64,000 bases of DNA, taken from contig NC_014666.1 in assembly GCF_000166135.1 (NCBI RefSeq), forward strand, positions 6,262,001-6,326,000, read 5' to 3'. This document shows positions 27,195 to 40,455 of this stretch, piece after piece. Each line of letters opens with the position of its first letter. Within the stretch, counting starts at the first letter, position 1. The DNA comes from Pseudofrankia inefficax. GTDB lineage: Bacteria; Actinomycetota; Actinomycetes; Frankiales; Frankiaceae. Position numbers and translations under genes: made by a program. A model generated the notes under the pieces. The model was not told the origin of the DNA, ran no database searches, and worked only from the letters and a program-made list of their open reading frames with translations.

Positions 27195-27979
27195 TGTTCC
27201 GAGCGTTCCTGGCCGAATGGCCCCAGCTGCTGCGCCGGCGGTTCGTCGTCGGCACCTTCGGCGCGACGGCGGCCATCGCGGCGCTCGGTGCCGTGCTGAC
27301 CTTCGTCGCCAGCGACGGGCGCCAGATCTACGCCGAGATGCCCCGCAACGACGAGCTGGCCCGGCCCGAGGGCATGGTCCAGGGGCTGAACGCGATCAGC
27401 ATCCTGCTCGGCGTCGTCGGGCTGTGCGTGGTCGCCTCCTCGCTGGCCGGCGACTACAGCCGGGGGACCCTGCGCAACCAGCTCGTCGCCCAGCCCCGCC
27501 GGCTGCGCCTGCTGCTCGGTAAATGCCTGGCGCTGGGGGCGTTCATCGCGCTGGTCGTGCTCGCGGCCGCGGTCGTCAGCGTGGCGCTGTCGTTCGCCCT
27601 CGCGCCGATCAAGAACGTCTCGACGGGTGCCTGGACCTCCCTCGCGGGGCTGGGCGAGTTCGGCAAGGCGGTGCTCAACAACATGCTGAACGCCTGGGGG
27701 TTCGGCGTGCTCGGGGCGCTCGCCGCGATCGTGTTCCGATCACCGGCGGCCTCGATCTCGGTCGGGGTGGCCTACGTCCTGCCCATCGAGATCATCGTCA
27801 GCGGAATCTGGCGCCCCGCCGAGAGCTGGCTGCCCGGCCAGCTGCTGCAGGACATCGCGAACGGCGGCTACGGCTACGCCACCGCGTACGGGGATGCCGG
27901 CCTGCGGGTCCTGTGCTACGGCGCGGTCGCGGTGCTCATCACCGCGCTGCTGTTCCGCTACCGGGACATGACCTCCTGA
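27194..27979 (+). CDS. ABC-2 type transporter permease
   Basis: 261 residues with about six membrane helices: near residues 20-40, 65-88, 108-132, 150-170, 178-198 and 238-256. SLAGDYSRGTLRNQLVAQPRRLRLLLGK is the typical cytoplasmic loop of ABC-2 permeases (DYxxGTLR). The ATG shares a base with the stop of the ATPase gene and is preceded by GGGGAGG. It works with the upstream ATPase as a homodimeric or heterodimeric exporter. The 3' end overlaps the convergent flippase gene by 22 bases, which leaves no room for an intergenic terminator. Confidence 0.85.
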   Translation: MFRAFLAEWPQLLRRRFVVGTFGATAAIAALGAVLTFVASDGRQIYAEMPRNDELARPEGMVQGLNAISILLGVVGLCVVASSLAGDYSRGTLRNQLVAQPRRLRLLLGKCLALGAFIALVVLAAAVVSVALSFALAPIKNVSTGAWTSLAGLGEFGKAVLNNMLNAWGFGVLGALAAIVFRSPAASISVGVAYVLPIEIIVSGIWRPAESWLPGQLLQDIANGGYGYATAYGDAGLRVLCYGAVAVLITALLFRYRDMTS

Positions 27980-29352
27980 ACGACCGGGACCCCCGGCTGG
28001 GCCGGCACCGCCAGCTCGGCGCGCACCGCCGGTCGGGACGCCACCCGGCCGGCGTGCAGCAGGCGCACCACCAGCGCCCCGGTCAGCATCGCGGCGAGGG
28101 TCTGGCACACGAGGCCGGCGACCGCCGTCCTCATGATCGCCCCGTCCGCCAGCGTGAGGACCACGATCGTCAACGGCGTGCAGACCGCGAGGACCCAGAC
28201 GACCTTCCGGTAGCCGGCGCCCAGCAGGTAGGAGGCGAACATCAACGTGACGGACAGGGCCGTCATGGCGAGCGCGAGCACCGGCAGCGCGGGGGCGGCG
28301 GCCGTCAGCTTCGGCCCGAACAGCACCGCGAGGATCCCGTGGCCGGCGACCACGCCGGCACCCGCCAGCAGCAGCCCGGGCGCTACGACGATGCTCAGCG
28401 CCATCGCCAGCGCCCGGCCAGCCGACTCCCCCGCCTGCCGTCGCCGCGCCGCCTCGGCGAGCAGGTAGTTCGCCACCGCCAGCCCGATGAAGACCGGGAT
28501 CTTGCTGGCGGTCGAGATCGCCGCGTAGCCGCCGACGCCCTCCGGGTTGCGCCAGCCGACGATGACCACGTCGATGTTCTGCAGCACCGCGAGCGGGGCC
28601 AGCGTGGCGAGCGCCACCGAGGTGTCGGCGATCAGGACCTCGCGGGTCCGCCGCGTGACGGCCGGTGCCGCCAGCGCCGGCCTCGGCGCGGCGGGAACGG
28701 TCTGGTCCCCGCCGGTCGCCCAGCCCGGGGAGGGTGTCCGGGCCGCCGTCCACCGGGCGAACTCGCCGGCCAGCGCGAGGCCGAGCACGAGACCGAGCCC
28801 GGCGCCGTTCACGCCGAGCCCGACGGCGGCGAGCACGACGATGCCGACGAACCGGAACGCCGCCTCGAGGATCACGTTGCGCGCCAGCCCCAGGTAGTTG
28901 CGCCGGGCCTGGAGCAGCCCGCGCTCGACGCACACGCCGACCCACACCGAGGCCGCGATGGCCGCCTCGGCGATCGCGAACGGGTGCGGGTAGGACAGCA
29001 GCACGGCGACCGGCTTACACACCGCGATCGCCACCACCGCCGCGCCAACGGTCGAGAACCCGATCACGTTCCGGAGCTTGCGGATCCAGCCCCAGCGCAG
29101 GCTGCGGGTGTTGTCGAGCTGCCCCAGGTCACGGTGCACGACGGCGTTCAGCACGGCCAGGCCGACAACCGAGAGGACCATGTAGATATTCGTCTGCTCG
29201 ACCACGGCGCCGTAACCGCGCGTGCTCAGGACTCTGGCCAGCACGAGGTTCATCACAAGATTGAAGAAGTTCGCGACGGCCCCGGCCGCGGCAAGTGCCA
29301 CCGGCCCACGCAACAGCTCGGCGACCAACTCGCGTCGCGCCGCCACCGCCAT
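27958..29352 (-). CDS. MOP-superfamily polysaccharide/lipid flippase, copy 1
   Basis: 464 residues with twelve or so hydrophobic helices. The N-terminal LLRGPVALAAAGAVANFFNLVMNLVLARVLSTRGYG layout is that of Wzx/MviN-like oligosaccharide flippases. The ATG at 29352 (MAVAARREL) was chosen over one 13 codons earlier because GAAAGG precedes it and because the paralog at 36089-37723 aligns from the same point. Copy 1 and copy 2 share long stretches such as LLSYPHP, AIAEAAIAA, VCVERGLLQAR and VIVGWRNP. It is third in a run with the GT2-AftD fusion and the acyltransferase-like gene, so it probably flips their undecaprenyl- or decaprenyl-linked product. Confidence 0.82.
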   Translation of the reverse strand: MAVAARRELVAELLRGPVALAAAGAVANFFNLVMNLVLARVLSTRGYGAVVEQTNIYMVLSVVGLAVLNAVVHRDLGQLDNTRSLRWGWIRKLRNVIGFSTVGAAVVAIAVCKPVAVLLSYPHPFAIAEAAIAASVWVGVCVERGLLQARRNYLGLARNVILEAAFRFVGIVVLAAVGLGVNGAGLGLVLGLALAGEFARWTAARTPSPGWATGGDQTVPAAPRPALAAPAVTRRTREVLIADTSVALATLAPLAVLQNIDVVIVGWRNPEGVGGYAAISTASKIPVFIGLAVANYLLAEAARRRQAGESAGRALAMALSIVVAPGLLLAGAGVVAGHGILAVLFGPKLTAAAPALPVLALAMTALSVTLMFASYLLGAGYRKVVWVLAVCTPLTIVVLTLADGAIMRTAVAGLVCQTLAAMLTGALVVRLLHAGRVASRPAVRAELAVPAQPGVPVVQEVMSR

Positions 29353-29455
29353 CGTCGGACCTTTCCCCGTGACCTTGCCGGCCAATATCATCCGGACCCG
29401 GACAATCCTATTCGCCCGTTACCTCCGCGGCCACCGCGCCAATCTCGTCGCGATA

Positions 29456-30802
29456 TCAATGAGAACCACCGTGCGCGGATCGCGCGGCGGCGACGGCCTC
29501 GGCCGGCACGCCCGGCTCCGCGAGTTCGGACACCGCGGCCAGAAAAAGACCGACGAACTCGCGCGCCGATCTCCCGTCGAACAGTTCATGGGTGTGGCAG
29601 AAGGTCAGATGGAGGCGGCCACCCATCCGGGTGGCGTGCAGGACCAGGCCCTGCGGCATCCGGACCGTCGCCGTGAAATGCAGGTCCAGCAGCCGGGGGC
29701 CGTCCACGCCGACGGTCAGGTCGGCCGGCACGTGGCCGAGGCTGCCCACCGCCGCCGTGGGCATGAGCGCGGGCCGCACCGCCGCGACCGCGAGCCGCAG
29801 CAGCGCCAGGCGGGGGCGGGCCGGCGCCGCGTGTAGCAGCCGCTCCACCAGGAGGCGCGCCCGGCCCGGTGCGGCCGGCGCCGGGCGGGCCTTCAGCGCC
29901 GTCGTCCGGTCGACGACGAGCGCGAGCAGCCGTGACGGCGTCGCCCGCAGCACCGCGTCGCTGGAAATGATCGCGAACCCGGTGGACACCCCGTCGACCT
30001 GGCCGGTCTCCACCCCGCGGACCGGGACTCTGACCCGCAGGGTGGCGCTGGCCTGGCCACGCCGGGCGTTCCACCGCTCGGCGGCGAGGTGCCCGGCCGC
30101 GACGAGCACGTCGTTGACGGTGGGGACCCGGCCGTCGGCCAGCCGCGCGGGCCGCGGCGCGGAGATCACCTCGGGCACGAAGGCGAAGCCGGTGAGCCCT
30201 GGGCGCCCGACCGGGCGCAGAAACCGCCTGCGCGGCGTGACCCGGCGCAGCACTCGGGCGCGCAGCCAGACCCCGGCGCCCGCGCGGGGCGCCGGACTCC
30301 GGTCACGGGCGCCGGGCGAGGCGGCGGGGACGGCCGGCGGCTGGTAGGCCGCCATCGTCTCGGTCAGCAGGGTGAGCAGACCGCTGCCGTCCACCGCCAG
30401 GTGGTGCGCGGCGATGCCGATCCAGTCACCGTCCGCGTGGTGCGCCACGAGCAGGTGCGCCAGCGGTGCCCGGCGCAGGTCGATGCTGCGGATGACGTCG
30501 CCCAGCTCGCGCCAGGCGTCCTCCCGGGTCGCCGCGGCGACCTCCGTCACGGCGGCGGCCCGCGGGTCCGGCAGGTGCAGCCAGCCGCCGGAGCCGGCCC
30601 GGTCCGTCAGCTCGGACCTGGTGGCCCGGTGGAGGGCGAACACGGTCGACGCGGCCGACGCGAGCTCGCCCGCGTCGAGGTGCCCGTCGGTCCGGCCCAG
30701 CAGCGCGACGGCCACCGGGGCGTCGCGTCGATCCGACGCCAGCAGCACGTGCTCAGGCAACGTCAGTGGACGTCGCGTCCCGCCGATTGCCGCCGCGTTC
30801 AC
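29456..30802 (-). CDS. Acyltransferase-like protein with HHxxxDG motif (condensation/WS-DGAT fold)
   Basis: 448 residues. AAHHLAVDGSGLL near residue 145 is the HHxxxDG catalytic motif of condensation domains, PapA acyltransferases and wax ester/diacylglycerol acyltransferases. A second-half segment, PTVNDVLVAAGHLAAERWN, then SLRVRVPVRG-type strands, fits the two-lobe chloramphenicol acetyltransferase fold. No carrier-protein or adenylation domain is attached. The GTG at 30802 has GGGGGAGAT eight bases upstream; an ATG nine bases earlier would sit too close to that site. It follows the GT2-AftD gene by 40 bases and precedes a flippase, so it may acylate a sugar or glycolipid. The acceptor is unknown. 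Confidence 0.72.
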   Translation of the reverse strand: MNAAAIGGTRRPLTLPEHVLLASDRRDAPVAVALLGRTDGHLDAGELASAASTVFALHRATRSELTDRAGSGGWLHLPDPRAAAVTEVAAATREDAWRELGDVIRSIDLRRAPLAHLLVAHHADGDWIGIAAHHLAVDGSGLLTLLTETMAAYQPPAVPAASPGARDRSPAPRAGAGVWLRARVLRRVTPRRRFLRPVGRPGLTGFAFVPEVISAPRPARLADGRVPTVNDVLVAAGHLAAERWNARRGQASATLRVRVPVRGVETGQVDGVSTGFAIISSDAVLRATPSRLLALVVDRTTALKARPAPAAPGRARLLVERLLHAAPARPRLALLRLAVAAVRPALMPTAAVGSLGHVPADLTVGVDGPRLLDLHFTATVRMPQGLVLHATRMGGRLHLTFCHTHELFDGRSAREFVGLFLAAVSELAEPGVPAEAVAAARSAHGGSH

Positions 30803-30842
30803 GGTTCCCATCTCCCCCGGCACGTCAGTGAATCCAATCCGT

Positions 30843-33800
30843 TCATGGGCCGCCGGCACGACTGCCGGGCCGGCTGTCCCGGACGGGGCAGAGCGCGACC
30901 AGGACGGCCGCGAGCGCTGTCGCCCCGGCCGCCTGCGCGAATCCGCCGAACGCGCCCACACCCTCCCGAGGCGTGCCATCCGGGGTCGCGAGCATAGCGA
31001 CCCCGGCGGCGGTCATCGCCGCCGCGGCGGCCCAGGGCATCAGGCCAGGCCAGCGCCGGGCGACCACGGCGAGCGCCGGCACCACGACCGCCACGGGCCC
31101 GGCCACCAGCGCGACCGCGACCGTTCCCGCGAGCATCGCCACCCACCAGTCCGGCAGCCGGTCCCACCACCGCGTCCCGGCCGCCAGCCGAGCGCCACCG
31201 TCCAGCCGCGAGGACCGGTGCCTGCGCCTGCGCCGGCCCGGGACGAGCGCGACGGCCAGCAGCACCGCGACCAGCACGAAGCCGACGACGAGGCCGGTTC
31301 GGTAGGTCTGGCCGGGCCGGTTCTCCAGCACGACCGTGCCGCCGGCACCGGCGGGCACGATCCAGCCCTGCTGCCAGCCGTCGAGACGGATCGGCGTCAG
31401 CCGCACGCCGCCCAGGGTGGCCGTCCAGGACCTGTTCGCGTTCTCCCGGACCGCGAGGAACGCCTGCTGCCCCGGTCCGACCGTGACCGTGCGGCGCTCG
31501 GCCGTCCACCTCCCGACCGTCGTCGAGCGCTGCGTGCTCGCCGGCTGGCTCGGCGCCGGGCTGGCCAGCGACAGTGTGTCGACGAACACGGTCGGGGCGG
31601 CGGCGGGTGCGACCGTGAGCACATGCTGGCCCGCGGGTAACGCCACCGAGCCGTCGGGCGTGCAGAGGGTGACGCGCATCGGCCGGGCGGCGGCGATGTC
31701 GCCGGACCGGCCCTCGACCCGGAGCTGGTAGGTGGTGCCGTCGATCCGGACCTCGGGGCCCTGGCCGCAGTCGAAGAGCACCCGTCGGTCGCCCTGGGGC
31801 TGGGTCCCGGTCTGGAGGGGCGCCAGCGTCGCCGTCCCCGTCAGGGTGAGCCGCGTCGGGCGGGACGTCTCGAACCGGCGGGCTATCGCCGGCTCCTCCG
31901 AGGCGCTGAACGGCGCGAGGATGTCGGACCGCGCGCGGTCGAAGGCGAACGCCGTGGAGCCGCCCGTCGTGCCCGCCAGCAGCCCGGTCGCGTCGGAGGG
32001 GACCTGGGCGTAGTGCTGGAAGCTCTGCCCCGGGACGGTCAGCTCGCGGATGCCGGCGCCCAGGGCCGTGCCGCCGTTCGGCGCGACCCGCAGCAGGGTC
32101 ACCTGGTACCACGAGCTCTTCCCCGGCGGCACCGCCAGCCGCTGGGCCTGCTCGGTCCTGGTGACGCGGGTGTCCACCGAGCCGTTGGCCGTGGTCACCC
32201 GGACCACCTGCGGGACCGACCGCCTGGCCGACTCGGCGAGCAGCTGGACCTGCAGGTAGGGCACGGCCACCGGCGTGCCGACGTCGACCCGCAGCCAGGC
32301 GCCCTCGGTCCCGGTCTTCGGGTCGGCCCGCGCCATCCACCAGGAGTAGGGCAGGCCGTCGACGGCGCTCGCCGGCCCGAGCTCCGGAGCGGCCCGCAGC
32401 GCGTAGCCGTAGGACGACGCCGTGACGGACTTCCCGTCCAGGTAGCCGCCGACGGTCTGGTGGCCGGCGGGCGGACGGTCGGTCCAGTCGTGCGGCGGGG
32501 TGACCGAGCCGGCGACGTCCTCGTCCGGGCCCAGCAGGTAGGACGCGGAGGCGTGGACGCGGCCGAAGATGTAGTCACGCCGGTCGAGGGTGTCGGTGAC
32601 GGCGAGCCCGGTGGTCGGCGTCAGCACCTGGCTGGCCGGCACCGTGTCCGCGGACGGCGCGACCACGCCACCTGCGGTGCTGACCTCGCCGGGCCCGGTG
32701 AGGTCGTCGGCCAGCACCACCGCGCGGTCCGCCGGCAGCAGGCCGTGCGCGGCGAGCTGCAACGTCGCCTCCGGGCCGCCGGCGACCACCAGAGCGTCCG
32801 CGGCCGAGTAGGCCTGGACGAGGCTCGCGCCACCGGGCACCGTCCAGACCTCGAGTGCCGGGACCTTGCCCACGGCGGGGCGCCGGGCCACCGGCACGGA
32901 CAGCTCCGTGGTCCCGAGGTGCGCGGCGACGGCCGGGCCGAAGGTCGCGGCCTCCCGCAGGCCCGACGCGGCGAGGGCCCGGTGGATCTCGCTGGTCGAC
33001 GGCGGGGTGTCCCAGGCGTCGGCCGCCAGGTCGTTGCGCACGACGATCTGGCCCACCCCGGCCCGGGCCAGCGCGGCGGCGAGGCCGGCACCGTCGCCGC
33101 GCGACAGGGCGTCCTCGACCGCGTCGAGCCAACGGGTGATGCCGACGCTGCCGAGCGGGATGAGGTTGCGGACACCCCAGGGGGTCGAGGACAGCCACTG
33201 CATCGGTTCGTCGAGCGGGCGCCCCCAGCGGTAGTCGCCGAACGGAGCGCCCGGCAACAGCAGCGTCCGCCCCCCTTCGGGGTTGGCTCCGAGCCAGTCG
33301 GCCGCCTGAGTCCAGTAGCCGGGCACCTGGGCGAACGGCTTTGGCTGCAGCGCGTCGCCGTTGAGCATCGGGGTCGAGCCGGCCACCAGCGCGGCCACCG
33401 TCAGGACGACCGCGCCCGCGGCGGCCGCCCGCCGGGGGCCCGTGAGCCGGTCCGCCAGCGCGAACTCGCCGCGGCGCAGCCGGTCGCCGGCACAGGCGAG
33501 GGCATGGGTGAGCCCGAGCGCCATCGGCAGGTGCACGACCGGCTGGAACTTGAACACGTTGCGCAACGGGCTGAGCGGCCCGGTGAGCAGGTCCCGGACG
33601 TCGGCGCCGACGGGGCTGCCCAGGCTGCCCGGGTAGGCGGTCGCCGTCACGACGACGCCGACGCCGAACATGACCACCAGCAGCCGCCTGGCCGGAAGAT
33701 CGCGGCGGGCCAGGCCCCACAGCGAGAGCGCCGCGGCGGCGACCGAGCCCACGACCGCGACCCAGGACGTCGCGTAGTCGGCGGCGGCCGGCAGCCAGGC

Positions 33801-35813
33801 GGTGGGCAGGCGCAGGTACGCCATCCAGTCGGCCGTCCCGCGCAGCGTCTCGTTGACCGAGGCCGCGGAGGTCGCGGTGTTGACGGACTCGGTGAACGGC
33901 AGGAAGTTCAGCCCGTACCGGCCGAGGGCCAGCAGCCCGACCGCCCACCAGGCCGTCGCGAGCAGGGCCGCGAGCAGCCACCAGCAGCGCAGCGCCCAGG
34001 CCCGGCGGCCGCCGCCCGCGAGCGCCAGCAGCACGACAGGGCCCAGCATCGCGGCGGCGGTGACGCTCGCGTTGACGCCGCCGGTGCCCAGGACCGCGAG
34101 GCCTGACAGCGCGGCGGCGCGGCGCGGCGAGAGCCGGGGGTCGGCCGGCGCCGGGGACCCCAGGAGGTCCGCCGGGGCGGCCGGCCGCAGGGCCCGCAGG
34201 AGGGGCACCAGCATCCACGGGAGCATGGCCGCGCCCGCGAGCGCCGCCGAGGTGGAGCCGATCTTGCCCAGGAACATCGGCGAGAGCGCGTACCCGAGGC
34301 CGCCGAGCAGCCGGCTCGCCGGTCGCCCGATCCCCAGCGTGTCCGCGAGGCGCACGACGCCCCAGGTCGCGACGGTGAGGACCAGCGCCATCCACAGCCG
34401 CTGGGTGATCCACGGCGGGATCGCGAGCACGTGGCCGGCGAGGAAGAAGGGCCCCATCGGGAACAGGTAGCCCCAGGGCTGGTTCTGGATGGACCCGAAG
34501 CCCGATCCAGAGTTCCAGAGGTGGGTCGCGTCCGCGAGGAACCGCGTCGGCGCGGCCGCAAGTTCGATCTTGGTGTCGGCGGTGAGCTTTCCCGGTGCCT
34601 GAAGCAGGAACAGCGTCGCGTAACCCAGGGCGATCCACAGCAGGTGCAGAAGCGAGGTACGGGCCGGTAAGCCAGCCGGGGAGGCGTCACCCGGTGGCCC
34701 GGTCCTTCTGGCCGAGGGGCCGGAGCGTCCGCTGGCCGGGCGTCGGGAGTTGGTCGGGTTCGGCTCGTCCGGCGGCGGGCGGCCAGCCTGGTCCGGGCGG
34801 TCCCGGAGCCGGCGCGTCGACGGCTCGACCCGGCTGGCCACGTCGACGCCCAGGCCCGGGCGCCGCGTCGGCGAAGGCCGTTCGACCAGGCCGCCGGTGT
34901 GCGGCTTGCCCAGTGGGCCGGCCGTCGCCTGGGCCAGCGCGACCTCGTGCGCCTTGGCGAATCCGCTTAACTCGCCGCGTGGCCGGACGAGCCGTGGCGG
35001 CCCGGCCGTGGCGAGGCCGGCCTGCCGGACGGCCCGGTGGACGTTGCGGCGGGCCCGGACCACGTCGGCCAGCATCGCCGGGGTGTGCCGCAGGGCGTTG
35101 AACGTTCCGTGTGGCTGCTCGGTCCAGCGCACCGGCACCTCGGCGATCCGGTAGCCGAGCGACCGGGCGATGGCCAGGACCTCGATGTCGAACGCGAAGC
35201 CGGCGACCTGCGAGAGGCCGAAGATGACCTTCGCCTCGGTGTGCCGGAAAGCCTTGAATCCGCACTGGGTGTCGGCCAGATCGAGGGGGATGAACATCCT
35301 GGTCACCTGGTGGAACACCCAGCTGCCTAATCGGCGCTTGGCGGAACGTTCGGCGCCCCCGCCGAGCCGGCGCGACCCGAGCGCCACCTCGGCGTGGTCC
35401 AGGGCCGCGAGCAGCGCCGGGAGATCTGCTACATCGGAAGCGAGGTCGGCGTCCATAAAGACGATCGCCTCGCCCGCGGCGGCGGCCACGCCCGCGCGGA
35501 CCGCGGCGCCCTTTCCCCGGTTGCGCGGAAGCCTGATTACCCGGCTGTTTGGCACGTCGCGCAGCAGGTCAGCCGCTATCCGTGCCGTGTCGTCGAGACT
35601 GCCGTCATCGACGACGATCACCTCGGCGTCAGGAAGATGAAAGCGCTGTAAGGCAGCCGAAAGCACGGGAAGCGACGATGGTAACCGGCGACTCTCGTTG
35701 AACGCCGGGATGACAACGCTTACTGGTACTCGGTCCAAGTCCAGACCCACGCTGCAGACCCCCTCAGCGACGGCTGCCCGTCGCCGTGAACGGGTGACCA
35801 TCTTTGCCCTCAT
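30843..35813 (-). CDS. GT2 glycosyltransferase fused to AftD-like arabinofuranosyltransferase
   Basis: Up to 1656 residues. Part 1 (about 28-245) is a GT2 domain of the dolichol/polyprenyl-phosphate mannosyltransferase kind: VSVVIPAFNESRRLP, VVDDGSLDDT, MDADLASD and DTQCGFKAF. A disordered Pro/Arg-rich linker covers about 250-390. Part 2 has AftD features, with ten or more helices between 390 and 850. GKLTADTKIELAAAPTRFL and SIQNQPWGYLFPMGPFF match the DUF3367/AftD signature. A large outer beta-rich region and two or three C-terminal helices (about 1500-1650) follow. AftD adds alpha-1,3-arabinofuranose to cell-wall polysaccharides outside the membrane. Likely alternative starts are ATG 35801 or GTG 35750, the latter with GAGGGGG. 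The fusion would couple lipid-sugar donor synthesis to transfer. Confidence 0.88.
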   Translation of the reverse strand: MRAKMVTRSRRRAAVAEGVCSVGLDLDRVPVSVVIPAFNESRRLPSSLPVLSAALQRFHLPDAEVIVVDDGSLDDTARIAADLLRDVPNSRVIRLPRNRGKGAAVRAGVAAAAGEAIVFMDADLASDVADLPALLAALDHAEVALGSRRLGGGAERSAKRRLGSWVFHQVTRMFIPLDLADTQCGFKAFRHTEAKVIFGLSQVAGFAFDIEVLAIARSLGYRIAEVPVRWTEQPHGTFNALRHTPAMLADVVRARRNVHRAVRQAGLATAGPPRLVRPRGELSGFAKAHEVALAQATAGPLGKPHTGGLVERPSPTRRPGLGVDVASRVEPSTRRLRDRPDQAGRPPPDEPNPTNSRRPASGRSGPSARRTGPPGDASPAGLPARTSLLHLLWIALGYATLFLLQAPGKLTADTKIELAAAPTRFLADATHLWNSGSGFGSIQNQPWGYLFPMGPFFLAGHVLAIPPWITQRLWMALVLTVATWGVVRLADTLGIGRPASRLLGGLGYALSPMFLGKIGSTSAALAGAAMLPWMLVPLLRALRPAAPADLLGSPAPADPRLSPRRAAALSGLAVLGTGGVNASVTAAAMLGPVVLLALAGGGRRAWALRCWWLLAALLATAWWAVGLLALGRYGLNFLPFTESVNTATSAASVNETLRGTADWMAYLRLPTAWLPAAADYATSWVAVVGSVAAAALSLWGLARRDLPARRLLVVMFGVGVVVTATAYPGSLGSPVGADVRDLLTGPLSPLRNVFKFQPVVHLPMALGLTHALACAGDRLRRGEFALADRLTGPRRAAAAGAVVLTVAALVAGSTPMLNGDALQPKPFAQVPGYWTQAADWLGANPEGGRTLLLPGAPFGDYRWGRPLDEPMQWLSSTPWGVRNLIPLGSVGITRWLDAVEDALSRGDGAGLAAALARAGVGQIVVRNDLAADAWDTPPSTSEIHRALAASGLREAATFGPAVAAHLGTTELSVPVARRPAVGKVPALEVWTVPGGASLVQAYSAADALVVAGGPEATLQLAAHGLLPADRAVVLADDLTGPGEVSTAGGVVAPSADTVPASQVLTPTTGLAVTDTLDRRDYIFGRVHASASYLLGPDEDVAGSVTPPHDWTDRPPAGHQTVGGYLDGKSVTASSYGYALRAAPELGPASAVDGLPYSWWMARADPKTGTEGAWLRVDVGTPVAVPYLQVQLLAESARRSVPQVVRVTTANGSVDTRVTRTEQAQRLAVPPGKSSWYQVTLLRVAPNGGTALGAGIRELTVPGQSFQHYAQVPSDATGLLAGTTGGSTAFAFDRARSDILAPFSASEEPAIARRFETSRPTRLTLTGTATLAPLQTGTQPQGDRRVLFDCGQGPEVRIDGTTYQLRVEGRSGDIAAARPMRVTLCTPDGSVALPAGQHVLTVAPAAAPTVFVDTLSLASPAPSQPASTQRSTTVGRWTAERRTVTVGPGQQAFLAVRENANRSWTATLGGVRLTPIRLDGWQQGWIVPAGAGGTVVLENRPGQTYRTGLVVGFVLVAVLLAVALVPGRRRRRHRSSRLDGGARLAAGTRWWDRLPDWWVAMLAGTVAVALVAGPVAVVVPALAVVARRWPGLMPWAAAAAMTAAGVAMLATPDGTPREGVGAFGGFAQAAGATALAAVLVALCPVRDSRPGSRAGGP

Positions 35814-36088: not shown

Positions 36089-37723
36089 CTACCCGGACGC
36101 GGGGCCGGGTGCGTCTGCCGCCGGGGCCGCCGGCCCGGGCCGGCGGCCGGAGGACGACCTCGGTGGCGCCAGCTCGGCGAACACGATCCGGGAGCCGGCC
36201 GCCGGCCGGCGCCGCGCGACGGTCTTCTCGTAGGCGCCGGAGCCCGGCCGCGCGGCGGGCGGCTCGCCCAGCGCGGCGGATCGCGCCGGGTCCGGTGGTG
36301 GCGCGGCGCCGGCGAGGTCCGCGTCCGCCAGCCGGACGGCCTCGTCGCGGGCACGGTCGCCCGCCGCGGCGAAGTGCCGATGGTGCAGCCGGTACACCAG
36401 GGCTCCCGCGACGGCCGCGGTGAACGCCTGGCAGGCAAGACCCGCCGCGGCCGTGCGCCCGATGTCGCCCCCGGCCAGCGTCAGCACGGCCGCGGTCAGC
36501 GGTGTGCAGCAGGCGAGGGCCCAGACGATCTTGCGGTAGCCGGCGCCGAGCAGGTAGGTCGCGAACATCAGGCTGGCCGCGAGGTACGTCATCGCGAGAG
36601 CCAGCACCCACAGGTCCGGCGCGGCCCCGGCCAGCTTCGGGCCGAAGACGAGCGAGAGGACCAGGTGGCCGGCGACCGCGCCGACCGCGGCCAGGAACAG
36701 GCCGGGCGTCACCACGCACACGAGCGCCATCGTGAGGGCCCGCCCGGCGGGCAGGCCCTCCTTGCGGCGGCGGGCCGCCTCCGGGAGCAGGAAGTTCGCC
36801 ACCGCCAGGCCGATGAACACCGGAACCTTGCAGGCGGTGGAGATCGCCGCGTAGCTGCCGACCCCGTCCGGGTTGCGCCAGCCGACGATCACGATGTCCA
36901 TGTTCTGCAGCAGCGCGAGCGGCACCAGGGTGGCCAGCGCGACCGACGCCTCGGCGATCAGGCTGTCCCTGGTCCGCCGCGGGGTCGCCGCCGCCGGCAT
37001 CATCGGGATCGGGCCGGTGGCGGTCGGGGTCGGGGTGACCACGTCGTCGCCCCCGCGCAGCCGCGAGCGCGCGGACGGGGACCGGCGGATCAGCGACGGG
37101 GTGCGGGCGACGGCCAGCCGGGCGTGCTCCCCGCCGGCCAGGCAGCCGAGCGCGAGCCCGATCCCCGCGCCGTTGACCCCGAGGCCCGCGGCGACCAGGA
37201 CCACGACGCAGGTGATCCGGAAGGCCGACTCGAAGACCAGGTTGCGGGCCAGCGCCGGGTAGTTGCCCCTGGCCTGCAGCAGGCCGCGCTCGACGCAGAG
37301 CCCCACCCAGATCGCGGCCGCGATGGCCGCCTCGGCGATCGCCAGCGGATGCGGGTAGGACAGCAGGAGGGAGACCGGTTCGCACAGGGCGAGCGCGAGC
37401 AGCGAGGCCAGCAGGACCCCCACCAGGGTCACGTTGCGCAGCTGGCGGATCCAGATCCGCCGCTCCCGGCGGGTGTCGCCGATCTCGGCCGACTCGCGGT
37501 GCACGGTGGCGGTCAGCACCGAGTTGCCGACCACCGACAGGATCATGAAGATGCTCGTCTGGACGCCCACGGCGCCGTAGCCGGCCGGGTCCAGCGCACG
37601 GGCCAGCACCAGGTTCATCACCAGGTTGAAGCCGTTGGTCACCGCGCCGGCCGCGGCCAGCGCCATCGGGCCCCGCAACAGTTCCGCGACGAGATCCCGC
37701 CGCATCACCACCGCGAGCCCCAT
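36089..37723 (-). CDS. MOP-superfamily polysaccharide/lipid flippase, copy 2
   Basis: 544 residues, paralogous to the protein at 27958-29352 over its whole membrane part. The start ATG at 37723 has GGAGGCGG upstream. Twelve or more helices begin at LLRGPMALAAAGAVTNGFNLVMN. A loop of about 40 residues between the middle helices (SPSARSRLRGGDDVV) is longer than in copy 1. The C-terminal 90 residues are a charged, Pro-rich cytoplasmic tail absent from copy 1. It lies upstream of the GT2-AftD gene, 275 bp away, and divergent from the GT4 gene. It probably exports a lipid-linked sugar; the two copies may serve different products. Confidence 0.8.
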   Translation of the reverse strand: MGLAVVMRRDLVAELLRGPMALAAAGAVTNGFNLVMNLVLARALDPAGYGAVGVQTSIFMILSVVGNSVLTATVHRESAEIGDTRRERRIWIRQLRNVTLVGVLLASLLALALCEPVSLLLSYPHPLAIAEAAIAAAIWVGLCVERGLLQARGNYPALARNLVFESAFRITCVVVLVAAGLGVNGAGIGLALGCLAGGEHARLAVARTPSLIRRSPSARSRLRGGDDVVTPTPTATGPIPMMPAAATPRRTRDSLIAEASVALATLVPLALLQNMDIVIVGWRNPDGVGSYAAISTACKVPVFIGLAVANFLLPEAARRRKEGLPAGRALTMALVCVVTPGLFLAAVGAVAGHLVLSLVFGPKLAGAAPDLWVLALAMTYLAASLMFATYLLGAGYRKIVWALACCTPLTAAVLTLAGGDIGRTAAAGLACQAFTAAVAGALVYRLHHRHFAAAGDRARDEAVRLADADLAGAAPPPDPARSAALGEPPAARPGSGAYEKTVARRRPAAGSRIVFAELAPPRSSSGRRPGPAAPAADAPGPASG

Positions 37724-37881
37724 GGACCGCCTCCGCGTCGTGTCGCCGCCGGCCGTACTGGCCCCGGACCCGGGCAATCGTACGACCCAGGGTGGATGGG
37801 ATATTCCTCGGCTAGGTTGGCCAGGCACTCCCCGCGCGCCCGACGCCCGCACCGCCGACCCCGAAGGCGAGGACCGCCCCC

Positions 37882-39504
37882 GTGCCCTCATCAGCGCCCG
37901 CCACCGCCGGCCAGACCGGCGGTACGGCCGCGCGGCGCGCCCTGGAGGCGCTCGCGGGCCGGCACGTCGTGTTCCTGAACTGGCGCGACCTCGACCATCC
38001 GCAGTCCGGCGGCGCCGAGCTGTTCTGCCAGTCGGTGGCGGCCCAGTTCGCGGCCGCGGGCGTCGAGGTGACGCTGCTGACCGCCCGCCCGCGCGGCCTG
38101 CCGGCGACGGCGACCGTCGACGGGGTCGCGGTCCGCCGCGGGGGTGGCACCTTCGGCGTCTACCCGGCGACGCTCGCCCGGCTCGCCAGGCTCGTCCGGT
38201 CCGGGCGCGGGGTGGACGCGGTGGTCGACTGCCAGAACGGCATCCCGTTCTTCAGCCCGCTCGTCCTGCCCGGCCGGACGCCGGTCGTGCAGGTCCTCCA
38301 CCACGTGCACCAGAAGCAGTTCCCGCTCTACTTCCCCGGCCCGCTGGCCCGGGTGGGGCAGCTGCTGGAGAAGCCGGGGAGCCGCTGGGTCTACCGGCGC
38401 CGCCCTGTCGCGGTGGTCTCGCCGTCGACCCGGGACGAGGCCCGCGGGGTGCTGGGCCTGCCCGGGCCGCGATTCCTGGTGCCCAACGGGGTGACCACCT
38501 CCCCCACGGCGGGCCGGGGTGCCACCGGCCCGGGTGCCGGTGACCGCGCCGCGGTCCCGACGATCGTGTGCGTCGGCCGGCTGGTCCCGCACAAGCGGAT
38601 GCATCTGCTGATCGAGGCGATTCCACGGCTGGCCGCGCGCCACCCCGGCCTGGTGGTCCACTTCATCGGCGACGGTCCGGACCGGGAGCGGCTGGCCACG
38701 CGGGCCGCCGAGCTGGGGGTCTCGCAGGGTGGCCCGGCGACCGGGGCCGCGCTGCGCTGGCACGGCCACGTCGACGCGGCCACCAGGGACGCGGTGCTGG
38801 CCTCGGCCTGGCTGACCGTCAACCCGTCCCACGGCGAGGGCTGGGGCCTGTCGGTGCTGGAGGCGGGCGCACTGGGGGTGCCGGCGGTGGCGTTCCGCGT
38901 TCCCGGGCTGCGCGACGCCGTCCGGGACGGCGAGACGGGCTGGCTCGTCGACGATCCGGACCAGTTCGGCGCCGTCGTCGACGCGGCCCTGACGGAGCTG
39001 AGCGACCCGGCCCGCGCGGCCGGGTGGCGGGCGGCGGCCAGCCACTGGGCGGGCGGGTTCACCTGGGAGACGAGCGCGGCCCTGCTCGCGACGGTCCTCG
39101 CCGGCGAGCTGGCCAGGGCGGGCCGCCGCGACCGGCGCCGGCTCGACGACGCCGTGACCCGGGTCTGGTTCCCGCTCGGCCCCGACGACCCGGCGCCCGC
39201 GCTGCGCGGCACCGACCTGCTGTACCGGACGAGGCCGGCAGCCGCCGGCACTGCCGTGGCCGACACTGTCGAATCCGCGGGGACGCCCGAACCGGACACC
39301 GACGAGCCCGGTGCCGTCGCGCTGCTCTACGGCGCGTCGCAGGCGGCGGCCCGGACCGCGCTGACCCGGCTCGGCATCGCCACGGGTACGGCACGGCTGC
39401 GCCCGGCCAGCGGAGCGGACCTGCTTGTCGGCACCGGACGCGCCTGGGCCGCGGACGGCCCGGGCCGGGCCGCGTCCGCCGCGGCTGGCCGCGACGCGCG
39501 CTGA
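37882..39504 (+). CDS. Glycosyltransferase family 4 (GT-B fold)
   Basis: 540 residues. The N-terminal Rossmann half shows HVVFLNWRDLDHPQSGGAELF and an LHHVHQKQFP acceptor-side segment. The C-terminal half has VCVGRLVPHKRMHLLIEAIPRL and the ExxxxxxxE-type SHGEGWGLSVLEAGALGVPAV that binds the nucleotide-sugar donor. The last 120 residues are an Ala/Gly-rich extension of unknown purpose. Members of this type sit near AftD-family genes in actinobacteria. The GTG start has GGCGAGGA about eight bases upstream. The start lies about 160 bp from that of the divergent flippase copy 2 and the 3' end faces the free-standing GT2. Donor and acceptor unknown. Confidence 0.87.
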   Translation: MPSSAPATAGQTGGTAARRALEALAGRHVVFLNWRDLDHPQSGGAELFCQSVAAQFAAAGVEVTLLTARPRGLPATATVDGVAVRRGGGTFGVYPATLARLARLVRSGRGVDAVVDCQNGIPFFSPLVLPGRTPVVQVLHHVHQKQFPLYFPGPLARVGQLLEKPGSRWVYRRRPVAVVSPSTRDEARGVLGLPGPRFLVPNGVTTSPTAGRGATGPGAGDRAAVPTIVCVGRLVPHKRMHLLIEAIPRLAARHPGLVVHFIGDGPDRERLATRAAELGVSQGGPATGAALRWHGHVDAATRDAVLASAWLTVNPSHGEGWGLSVLEAGALGVPAVAFRVPGLRDAVRDGETGWLVDDPDQFGAVVDAALTELSDPARAAGWRAAASHWAGGFTWETSAALLATVLAGELARAGRRDRRRLDDAVTRVWFPLGPDDPAPALRGTDLLYRTRPAAAGTAVADTVESAGTPEPDTDEPGAVALLYGASQAAARTALTRLGIATGTARLRPASGADLLVGTGRAWAADGPGRAASAAAGRDAR

Positions 39505-39522: not shown

Positions 39523-39567
39523 GCCGGAGCTGGCAGGGCCGGAGCTGGCTCAGCCGGAGCTGGACGG
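39523..39567. repeat. Three tandem 15-bp repeats across the GT2 stop codon
   Basis: GCCGGAGCTGG recurs at 39523, 39538 and 39553, an exact 15-bp period; the four other bases of each unit vary. The middle unit contains the GT2 stop codon (complement of TCA, 39550-39552). Each unit is five codons, so reading past the stop on the minus strand would continue as ASSGP-type repeats in frame. Confidence 0.88.
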
Positions 39568-40455
39568 GCGGGCGCGCGCGACGCCCTCGGCGGCCGAGGA
39601 CCGCAGCGAGTTGCCCGAGCTGATCGGCGCCGGCTGCGCGTGGCCGCGGTCGAGCGGGATGACGTCGGCGCCGGCCGCCGGATCGTCCGGCCGGCCGCCG
39701 GGTCCAGGCCCGGTGCCGCCCGGCTCGGCCGCCCGCAGCGGAATGGGCCGGCCGGCCTGGCGCAGGTAGCGCCGCGCCCTGGCCAGGTCGACGATCATGG
39801 ACGGGGTGTGCCGGATGACGCTGAACGTGCCGCCCGGCTCCTCCGACCAGCGCACCGGCACCTCGACGATCCGGTACTCCATCGCGGTGGCCATGGCCAG
39901 CACCTCGACGTCGAAGCCAAAGCCGGTGGCCCGCGCCATGCTGAACAGGACCTTGGCCTCGTCCCGCCGGAAGGCCTTGAAGCCGCACTGGGTGTCCGCG
40001 AGGTCGATGGCGGTGAAGGACCGGGTCAGCTGGTTGAACGCCCAGCTTCCGAGCTGGCGGACGTAGGGGCGGGTCGCGCCCTCGCCGACCCGTCGCGACC
40101 CGATCGCCACCTCGGCGTCCGACAGGGCCGCCAGCAGCAGCGGCAGGTCACTGACGTCCGAGGCCAGATCGGCGTCGGTGAAGACGATCGCCTCGCCCGT
40201 CGCGGCGGCCACGCCGGCCCGGATGGCGGTGCCCTTCCCGCTGTTCCAGGGAAGGCGGATCACCCGGCCGGTCGGCAGGTCGCGCAGCAGGCGGGTCGCG
40301 ATCCCCGCGGTGTCGTCGGAGCTGCCGTCGTCGACGACGATCACCTCGGCACCCGGGAAGTCACGCAGCGCGGCGACCAGGACCGGGAGCGAGAAGGGAA
40401 GCCGGCGCGACTCGTTGAAGGCGGGAACCACAACGCTGACGGGAACCCTCCGCAC
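39550..40455 (-). CDS. Free-standing GT2 polyprenyl-phosphate glycosyltransferase-like protein
   Basis: 301 residues of the DPM1-like GT2 family: VSVVVPAFNESRRLP, VVDDGSSDDT, TDADLASDVSDLPLL, SRRVGEGATR and DTQCGFKAFRRDEAKV. The same blocks occur in the same order in the N-terminal domain of the protein ending at 30843, so they are close paralogs. The enzyme would make a polyprenyl-phosphate sugar (mannose or similar) on the cytoplasmic side. The GTG start has GGGGGTGAG about five bases upstream. The last 60 residues are Pro/Gly-rich and disordered. The stop lies inside a 15-bp tandem repeat. Confidence 0.87.
   Translation of the reverse strand: MRRVPVSVVVPAFNESRRLPFSLPVLVAALRDFPGAEVIVVDDGSSDDTAGIATRLLRDLPTGRVIRLPWNSGKGTAIRAGVAAATGEAIVFTDADLASDVSDLPLLLAALSDAEVAIGSRRVGEGATRPYVRQLGSWAFNQLTRSFTAIDLADTQCGFKAFRRDEAKVLFSMARATGFGFDVEVLAMATAMEYRIVEVPVRWSEEPGGTFSVIRHTPSMIVDLARARRYLRQAGRPIPLRAAEPGGTGPGPGGRPDDPAAGADVIPLDRGHAQPAPISSGNSLRSSAAEGVARARPSSSG

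Follow-up and report, generated by a model that had tools for sequence, protein, structure and literature searches.

Which polymer would be built by a single protein chain that carries a GT2 glycosyltransferase at its N-terminus and, behind it, AftD, known from mycobacteria as an arabinofuranosyltransferase? One gene in a 64,000-nucleotide stretch of the Pseudofrankia inefficax genome (the window) raises this question. A first-pass annotation of the locus had suggested that the GT2 domain could channel a lipid-linked sugar donor to AftD, and had asked which arabinan is made in an organism that may lack mycolic acids.

The gene is open on the minus strand, with no stop across 1656 codons, and lies in a genome assembled as one closed contig of 8,815,781 bp (Table 1). 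Its annotated ATG is probably not the true start. The GTG at 35750 fits better, because GAGGGGG lies 7 nt upstream of it and the homology of the nearest relatives, in genomes G001 and G002, is firm from this region onward. A sigma-70-type promoter was sought near the gene without a match. Pfam searches place a GT2 domain (PF00535, residues 32–191, E 1.9e-28) and a complete GT-C_AftD domain (PF11847, residues 399–1099, E 3.2e-203) in this one open frame. In-frame fusions are carried by G002, where the protein is 93% identical over its length, and by Frankia sp. AgB32, where it is 64% identical and the linker has diverged with frame-keeping indels. Further carriers are G240, G400 and G206, the copy in the last being cut at a contig end. 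An assembly error or a frameshift, which the first-pass annotation had named as grounds for rejecting the fusion, can be ruled out since the same fusion recurs in these independently assembled genomes and its copies group as a single clade whether the tree is built from GT2 or from AftD. The fusion of GT2 and AftD into one gene is thus near certain, as had been proposed from the first reading. A literature search found no paper describing such a GT2-AftD fusion.

Table 1 Features of the fused gene and of its cluster, with positions in the window.
Feature	Position	Strand	Details
Fused GT2::AftD gene	30843..35813	(-)	1656 codons from ATG 35813; likely start GTG 35750 (1635 aa)
GT2 domain, predicted polyprenyl-phosphate-sugar synthase	35004..35726	(-)	Residues 30-270
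Disordered linker	34653..35003	(-)	Residues 271-387; Pro/Arg-rich
AftD part	30846..34652	(-)	Residues 388-1656; TM helix 388-405, GT-C domain, periplasmic carbohydrate-binding regions
Condensation-like (acyltransferase-like) protein	29456..30979	(-)	PF00668, E 1.5e-6, below Pfam cut-off; likely start near 30811
MATE-like flippase A, last gene of the row	27958..29391	(-)	Paralogue of flippase B
MATE-like flippase B (polysaccharide export type)	36089..37891	(-)	PF01943, E 9.5e-11
GT4 glycosyltransferase, same cluster	37882..39504	(+)	PF00534/PF13692, E about 1e-29
Unfused GT2 paralogue	39550..40455	(-)	In the tree, groups with Frankia GT2s upstream of AftD

As judged from sequence and a structure model of the GT2 part and linker, the product of the GT2 head would be a polyprenyl-phosphate sugar. 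The GT2 part, modelled at a pLDDT of about 96, has a GT-A fold of the DPMS/GtrB/ArnC type with a DxD motif. Its closest solved fold is the DPM synthase of P. furiosus (5mlz, Z 27.1, rmsd 2.1 over 224 residues), followed by ArnC (Z 24.4) and GtrB sll0501 (Z 22.6). Glucosyl-3-phosphoglycerate synthases share the fold at a lower Z of about 21. By sequence, too, the nearest solved structures are polyprenyl-phosphate-sugar synthases, with which the head has acidic residues in common, including those of D121-A-D123. The catalytic acids D69/D70 and D121/D123 are present, and D70, D121, D123, R148, D181 and D209 are invariant among 40 relatives of the GT2 part. Unlike these synthases, the head has no transmembrane (TM) segments of its own: the C-terminal helix pair of GtrB and ArnC is absent, and the model instead enters a disordered linker that runs into AftD. 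Since the head precedes the first TM helix, which starts at residue 388 in the model, and carries no signal, it should be cytoplasmic.

The linker had been put at 140 residues. It is present but shorter, with about 115 residues (272–386) rich in Pro, Arg, Gly and Ala and modelled at a pLDDT under 50. Compared with G002, the linker has a dN/dS of about 0.66, against about 0.14 for GT2 and 0.17 and 0.21 for the two parts of AftD. Unfused GT2s already end in tails, about 70 to 265 residues long and Pro/Ala-rich, so the most plausible view of the linker is that a tail of this kind became joined to the short cytoplasmic N-terminus of AftD.

The AftD half resembles mycobacterial AftD (Rv0236c family) in its GT-C domain and C-terminal periplasmic region, and both regions are covered by the matches to the AftD structures 6wbx (E 4e-135) and 6w98 (E 2e-134). 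D413 and E642, putative catalytic acids of the first periplasmic loop and the GT-C core, are shared with these enzymes and invariant across 24 AftD sequences. What the fusion adds to the mycobacterial architecture is a cytoplasmic N-terminus of about 385 residues made up of GT2 and linker. AftD has been reported to be essential in M. smegmatis (Skovierova et al. 2009, quoted in PMC6034362).

With G240, G400 and G206 added by a family-wide GT2-domain search, the carriers number 6 of 35 Frankiaceae genomes, P. inefficax included. Every fused copy falls into a single clade of the GT2 tree (support 100/98), apart from the AftD-adjoining GT2s of Frankia, and the five fused copies included in the AftD tree likewise form one clade (support 100). 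The single clade in both trees fits one fusion event in a duplicated GT2-AftD unit, which would then have been inherited or transferred as a unit. Most other Frankiaceae encode a separate GT2 on the same strand directly upstream of AftD, the gap between the unfused genes ranging from a few to about 140 bp. After this pair there is usually a Condensation-like gene, a GT4 on the opposite strand and a MATE-like flippase. The survey of actinobacteria that had been recommended for the fusion could be made in part: the fusion was found in Frankiaceae but in none of the loci read outside them. Twenty Actinomycetes loci, mainly with long AftD frames, contained no fusion and only out-of-frame overlaps with GT4, and among 39 named AftD loci it was seen in AgB32 only.

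Some relatives retain only pieces of the unit. G001 (6,884,336 bp) has lost the AftD half, the Condensation-like gene and flippase A by deletion, leaving a relic (L189 13422-14953) with remnants of 79–127 bp of AftD and the Condensation-like gene that are about 88–90% identical. Its GT2 half is still open at 93% identity, and the GT2 tail is frameshifted. G004-G006 also retain a GT2 of the fused clade without AftD at the locus. The GT2 can therefore persist alone, which speaks against the model of joint action set out below. In the draft assembly of G400, the fused copy shifts frame near AftD residue 950 (L196 3714-4135), by decay or sequencing error.

On the P. inefficax genome the fusion is the first gene of a row on one strand with short gaps, followed by the Condensation-like gene and flippase A; this order is common to Frankia sp. 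AgB32. The Condensation-like gene takes the same place after fused and unfused AftD alike in Frankiaceae, and its product may be an acyltransferase acting on a glycan or glycolipid. Flippase B lies 275 bp upstream of the fused gene, with the GT4 and the unfused GT2 paralogue beyond it, and the gene for flippase A shares 72.5% DNA identity with the flippase B gene of G001. A GT-A synthase, flippases and a GT-C enzyme are thus encoded together in one cluster. Most of the actinobacterial loci read have a GT4 beside AftD or close to it, those of Streptomyces, Micromonospora and Nocardioides among them (L039-L058, L082-L158).

The genome holds two further AftD-family genes. A second, standard AftD is located at about 1.04 Mb (L059 8033-12322 of G000), with no GT2, GT4 or flippase of the fusion's cluster within about 6-8 kb, so an adjoining GT2 partner is not universal even in this genome. 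Its likely former neighbors, the GT2 paralogue, the GT4 and flippase B, are in the window. The third gene is divergent, scoring about 280 bits to PF11847 (L060 5940-12119; G000:C1, about 6.028-6.034 Mb). It follows a MATE-like flippase and a GT4 in overlapping frames, an arrangement also seen in the Frankiaceae loci L063, L068, L070 and L073.

Whether the fused AftD builds an arabinan depends on its donor. DPPR synthase is a UbiA-type enzyme, and the known donor of mycobacterial AftD, decaprenyl-phosphoryl-arabinose (DPA), is not made by a GT2. DPA derives from PRPP via DPPR synthase and subsequent epimerization by DprE1/DprE2 (PMC10994848, PMC11127046), and arabinosyl transfer by AftD was assayed with DPA as donor (PMC6034362). 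Family searches for DPPR synthase, DprE1 and Emb found none of the three in the genome. A full PF01040 search returned three UbiA proteins, namely CtaB (heme O synthase), MqnP and a MenA-like protein. DPPR synthase models matched nothing in this genome, while the controls scored, in 38 of 38 AftD-bearing genomes of the mycobacterial family. The best DprE1 score in the genome was 86 bits against a cut-off of 500, and the protein concerned matches a different family much better; PF04602 gave no match to Emb (EmbABC), with C. glutamicum scoring as control. For this strain, EuI1c, the published wall sugars comprise glucose, galactose, mannose, ribose, rhamnose and fucose, and arabinose is not listed (PMC9680954). 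As DPPR synthase, DprE1 and Emb are missing and no wall arabinose is reported, in contrast to the setting of mycobacterial AftD, the question of which arabinan is made is probably the wrong one. An arabinan reading for the fused AftD is unlikely, DprE2 and non-mycobacterial pentofuranosyl-lipid routes lying outside these searches, and the AftD half probably handles a sugar other than that of its tuberculosis namesake.

What, then, would the chain do? GT2 enzymes of this type act on the inner membrane face and GT-C enzymes on the outer. We lean slightly towards a reading in which the whole chain serves one pathway: the cytoplasmic GT2 head would load polyprenyl phosphate with a sugar taken from a nucleotide sugar, the row's MATE-like flippase would turn the lipid-sugar over, and the GT-C (AftD) head would hand its sugar on to an outer-face polysaccharide or glycolipid, with the carbohydrate-binding regions of AftD holding the acceptor. 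The sugar is probably a hexose, for example glucose, galactose or mannose, the reported wall hexoses being the first candidates. That both halves serve one lipid-sugar, as the first-pass annotation implied, is reasonable given that their genes adjoin in most Frankiaceae. The direct channeling proposed there is doubtful, because the heads face opposite sides of the membrane and a flippase must act between them (the flippase genes next to the fusion had gone unmentioned in that annotation), and for the same topological reason the fusion alone is no proof of a shared substrate. Nor would a channel be required: the disordered linker may simply keep a GT2 head that would otherwise be soluble at the membrane beside its partner, and the fusion more likely serves to fix stoichiometry and to anchor the synthase there. 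The locus may thus represent a duplicated multi-component transmembrane glycosylation system whose first and last enzymes have merged.

Known systems offer parallels for both the fusion and the pathway. In M. tuberculosis, Ppm1 (Rv2051c) joins a PPM synthase to Lnt, a membrane acyltransferase (PMC3485146, PMC3460810), and in M. smegmatis the GT2 synthase is separate from its membrane partner yet interacts with it (PMC3485146). Here, too, a GT2 synthase and a polytopic partner are fused in one lineage and encoded by neighboring genes in others. In Ppm1, however, the GT2 occupies the C-terminus and is paired with an acyltransferase, whereas the GT-C partner of the present fusion could use the GT2's own product. 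CsbB-GtcA-YfhO and GacI-GacK-GacL combine a GT-A lipid-sugar synthase, a flippase (Wzx-type in GacIKL) and a GT-C enzyme (PMC8035078). They are listed as three separate proteins, whereas P. inefficax has the first and third on a single chain, with an AftD as the GT-C. The Citrobacter O-antigen pentofuranose system ORF15-ORF14-ORF12 (GT136) consists of a synthase, a MATE flippase and a GT-C with a carbohydrate-binding module (PMC11127046), the same set-up as in the fusion cluster. Its synthase is PRPP-dependent and DPPR-synthase-like, however, and no DPPR-synthase-type UbiA was found in the genome of the fusion.

The strong AftD identity (PF11847, E 3e-203), with D413 and E642 invariant across AftDs, would also suit a true arabino- or pentofuranosyltransferase joined by a neutral merger to a neighbor that supplies another enzyme with a different lipid-sugar. 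Ribose is among the reported EuI1c wall sugars, and the weak constraint on the linker is as expected of a casual merger. We regard this explanation as unlikely, given that DPPR synthase, DprE1, Emb and reported wall arabinose are all missing, that the fused copies make up one clade and that both halves are under purifying selection. It is also conceivable, if quite improbable, that the halves separate in vivo, by internal initiation in the linker or by linker cleavage, and that no functional bifunctional enzyme exists. A disordered, fast-evolving linker would permit this, re-initiation would be ancestral given the short distances between unfused genes, and an in-frame GTG does occur inside the linker (Val-Asp-Val). 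By eye, however, no strong Shine-Dalgarno sequence precedes this GTG, and the frame has stayed open in the 64%-identical protein, where the linker is largely diverged and its indels are multiples of three.

The losses described above raise the further prospect that the fused copy is a dispensable or decaying duplicate without a distinct role. It would be redundant with the two other AftD-family genes of the genome, its AftD half and the genes behind it have been reduced to short remnants in G001, and the frame change in G400 points in the same direction. Against this stand the low dN/dS of the folded parts (0.14-0.21 versus G002), conservation in two genera and an intact gene row, and we consider such decay highly improbable. 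The reading in which the whole chain makes, and after flipping uses, one lipid-sugar remains the one towards which we lean.

AftD without mycolic acids, which had been taken as noteworthy, proved to be ordinary: with two candidates per genome scored, 197 of 393 Actinomycetes genomes carried AftD, and the carriers known by name include Streptomyces, Micromonospora and Nocardioides. AftD being common beyond mycolate producers, the surprise is not specific to this organism; the fusion is. DPPR synthase, for which five candidates per genome were scored, was unmatched in 94 of the 197 AftD-bearing Actinomycetes genomes, and 47 genomes of the class, under the same limited scoring, had DPPR synthase without AftD. 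Within Frankiaceae it was unmatched in 27 of 28 AftD-bearing genomes, some candidates being left unscored. Given the two (AftD) or five (DPPR synthase) candidates scored per genome, absences across the class are less firm than those in the P. inefficax genome. A broader reading, held tentatively, is that Frankiaceae AftDs form a non-arabinosyl branch using a GT2-made polyprenyl-phosphate hexose, with fusion or adjacency revealing the donor synthase, and that the AftDs of many of these 94 genomes may be misnamed.

The fusion would be a one-chain variant of the synthase/flippase/GT-C systems by which Gram-positive cell walls are decorated. G001, having lost the AftD half, offers a natural comparison, in which nature has already split the gene into two testable halves. 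As the AftD family name is applied across actinobacteria, a fusion in a genome without the searched DPA steps provides a direct clue to a non-mycolate role of this family.
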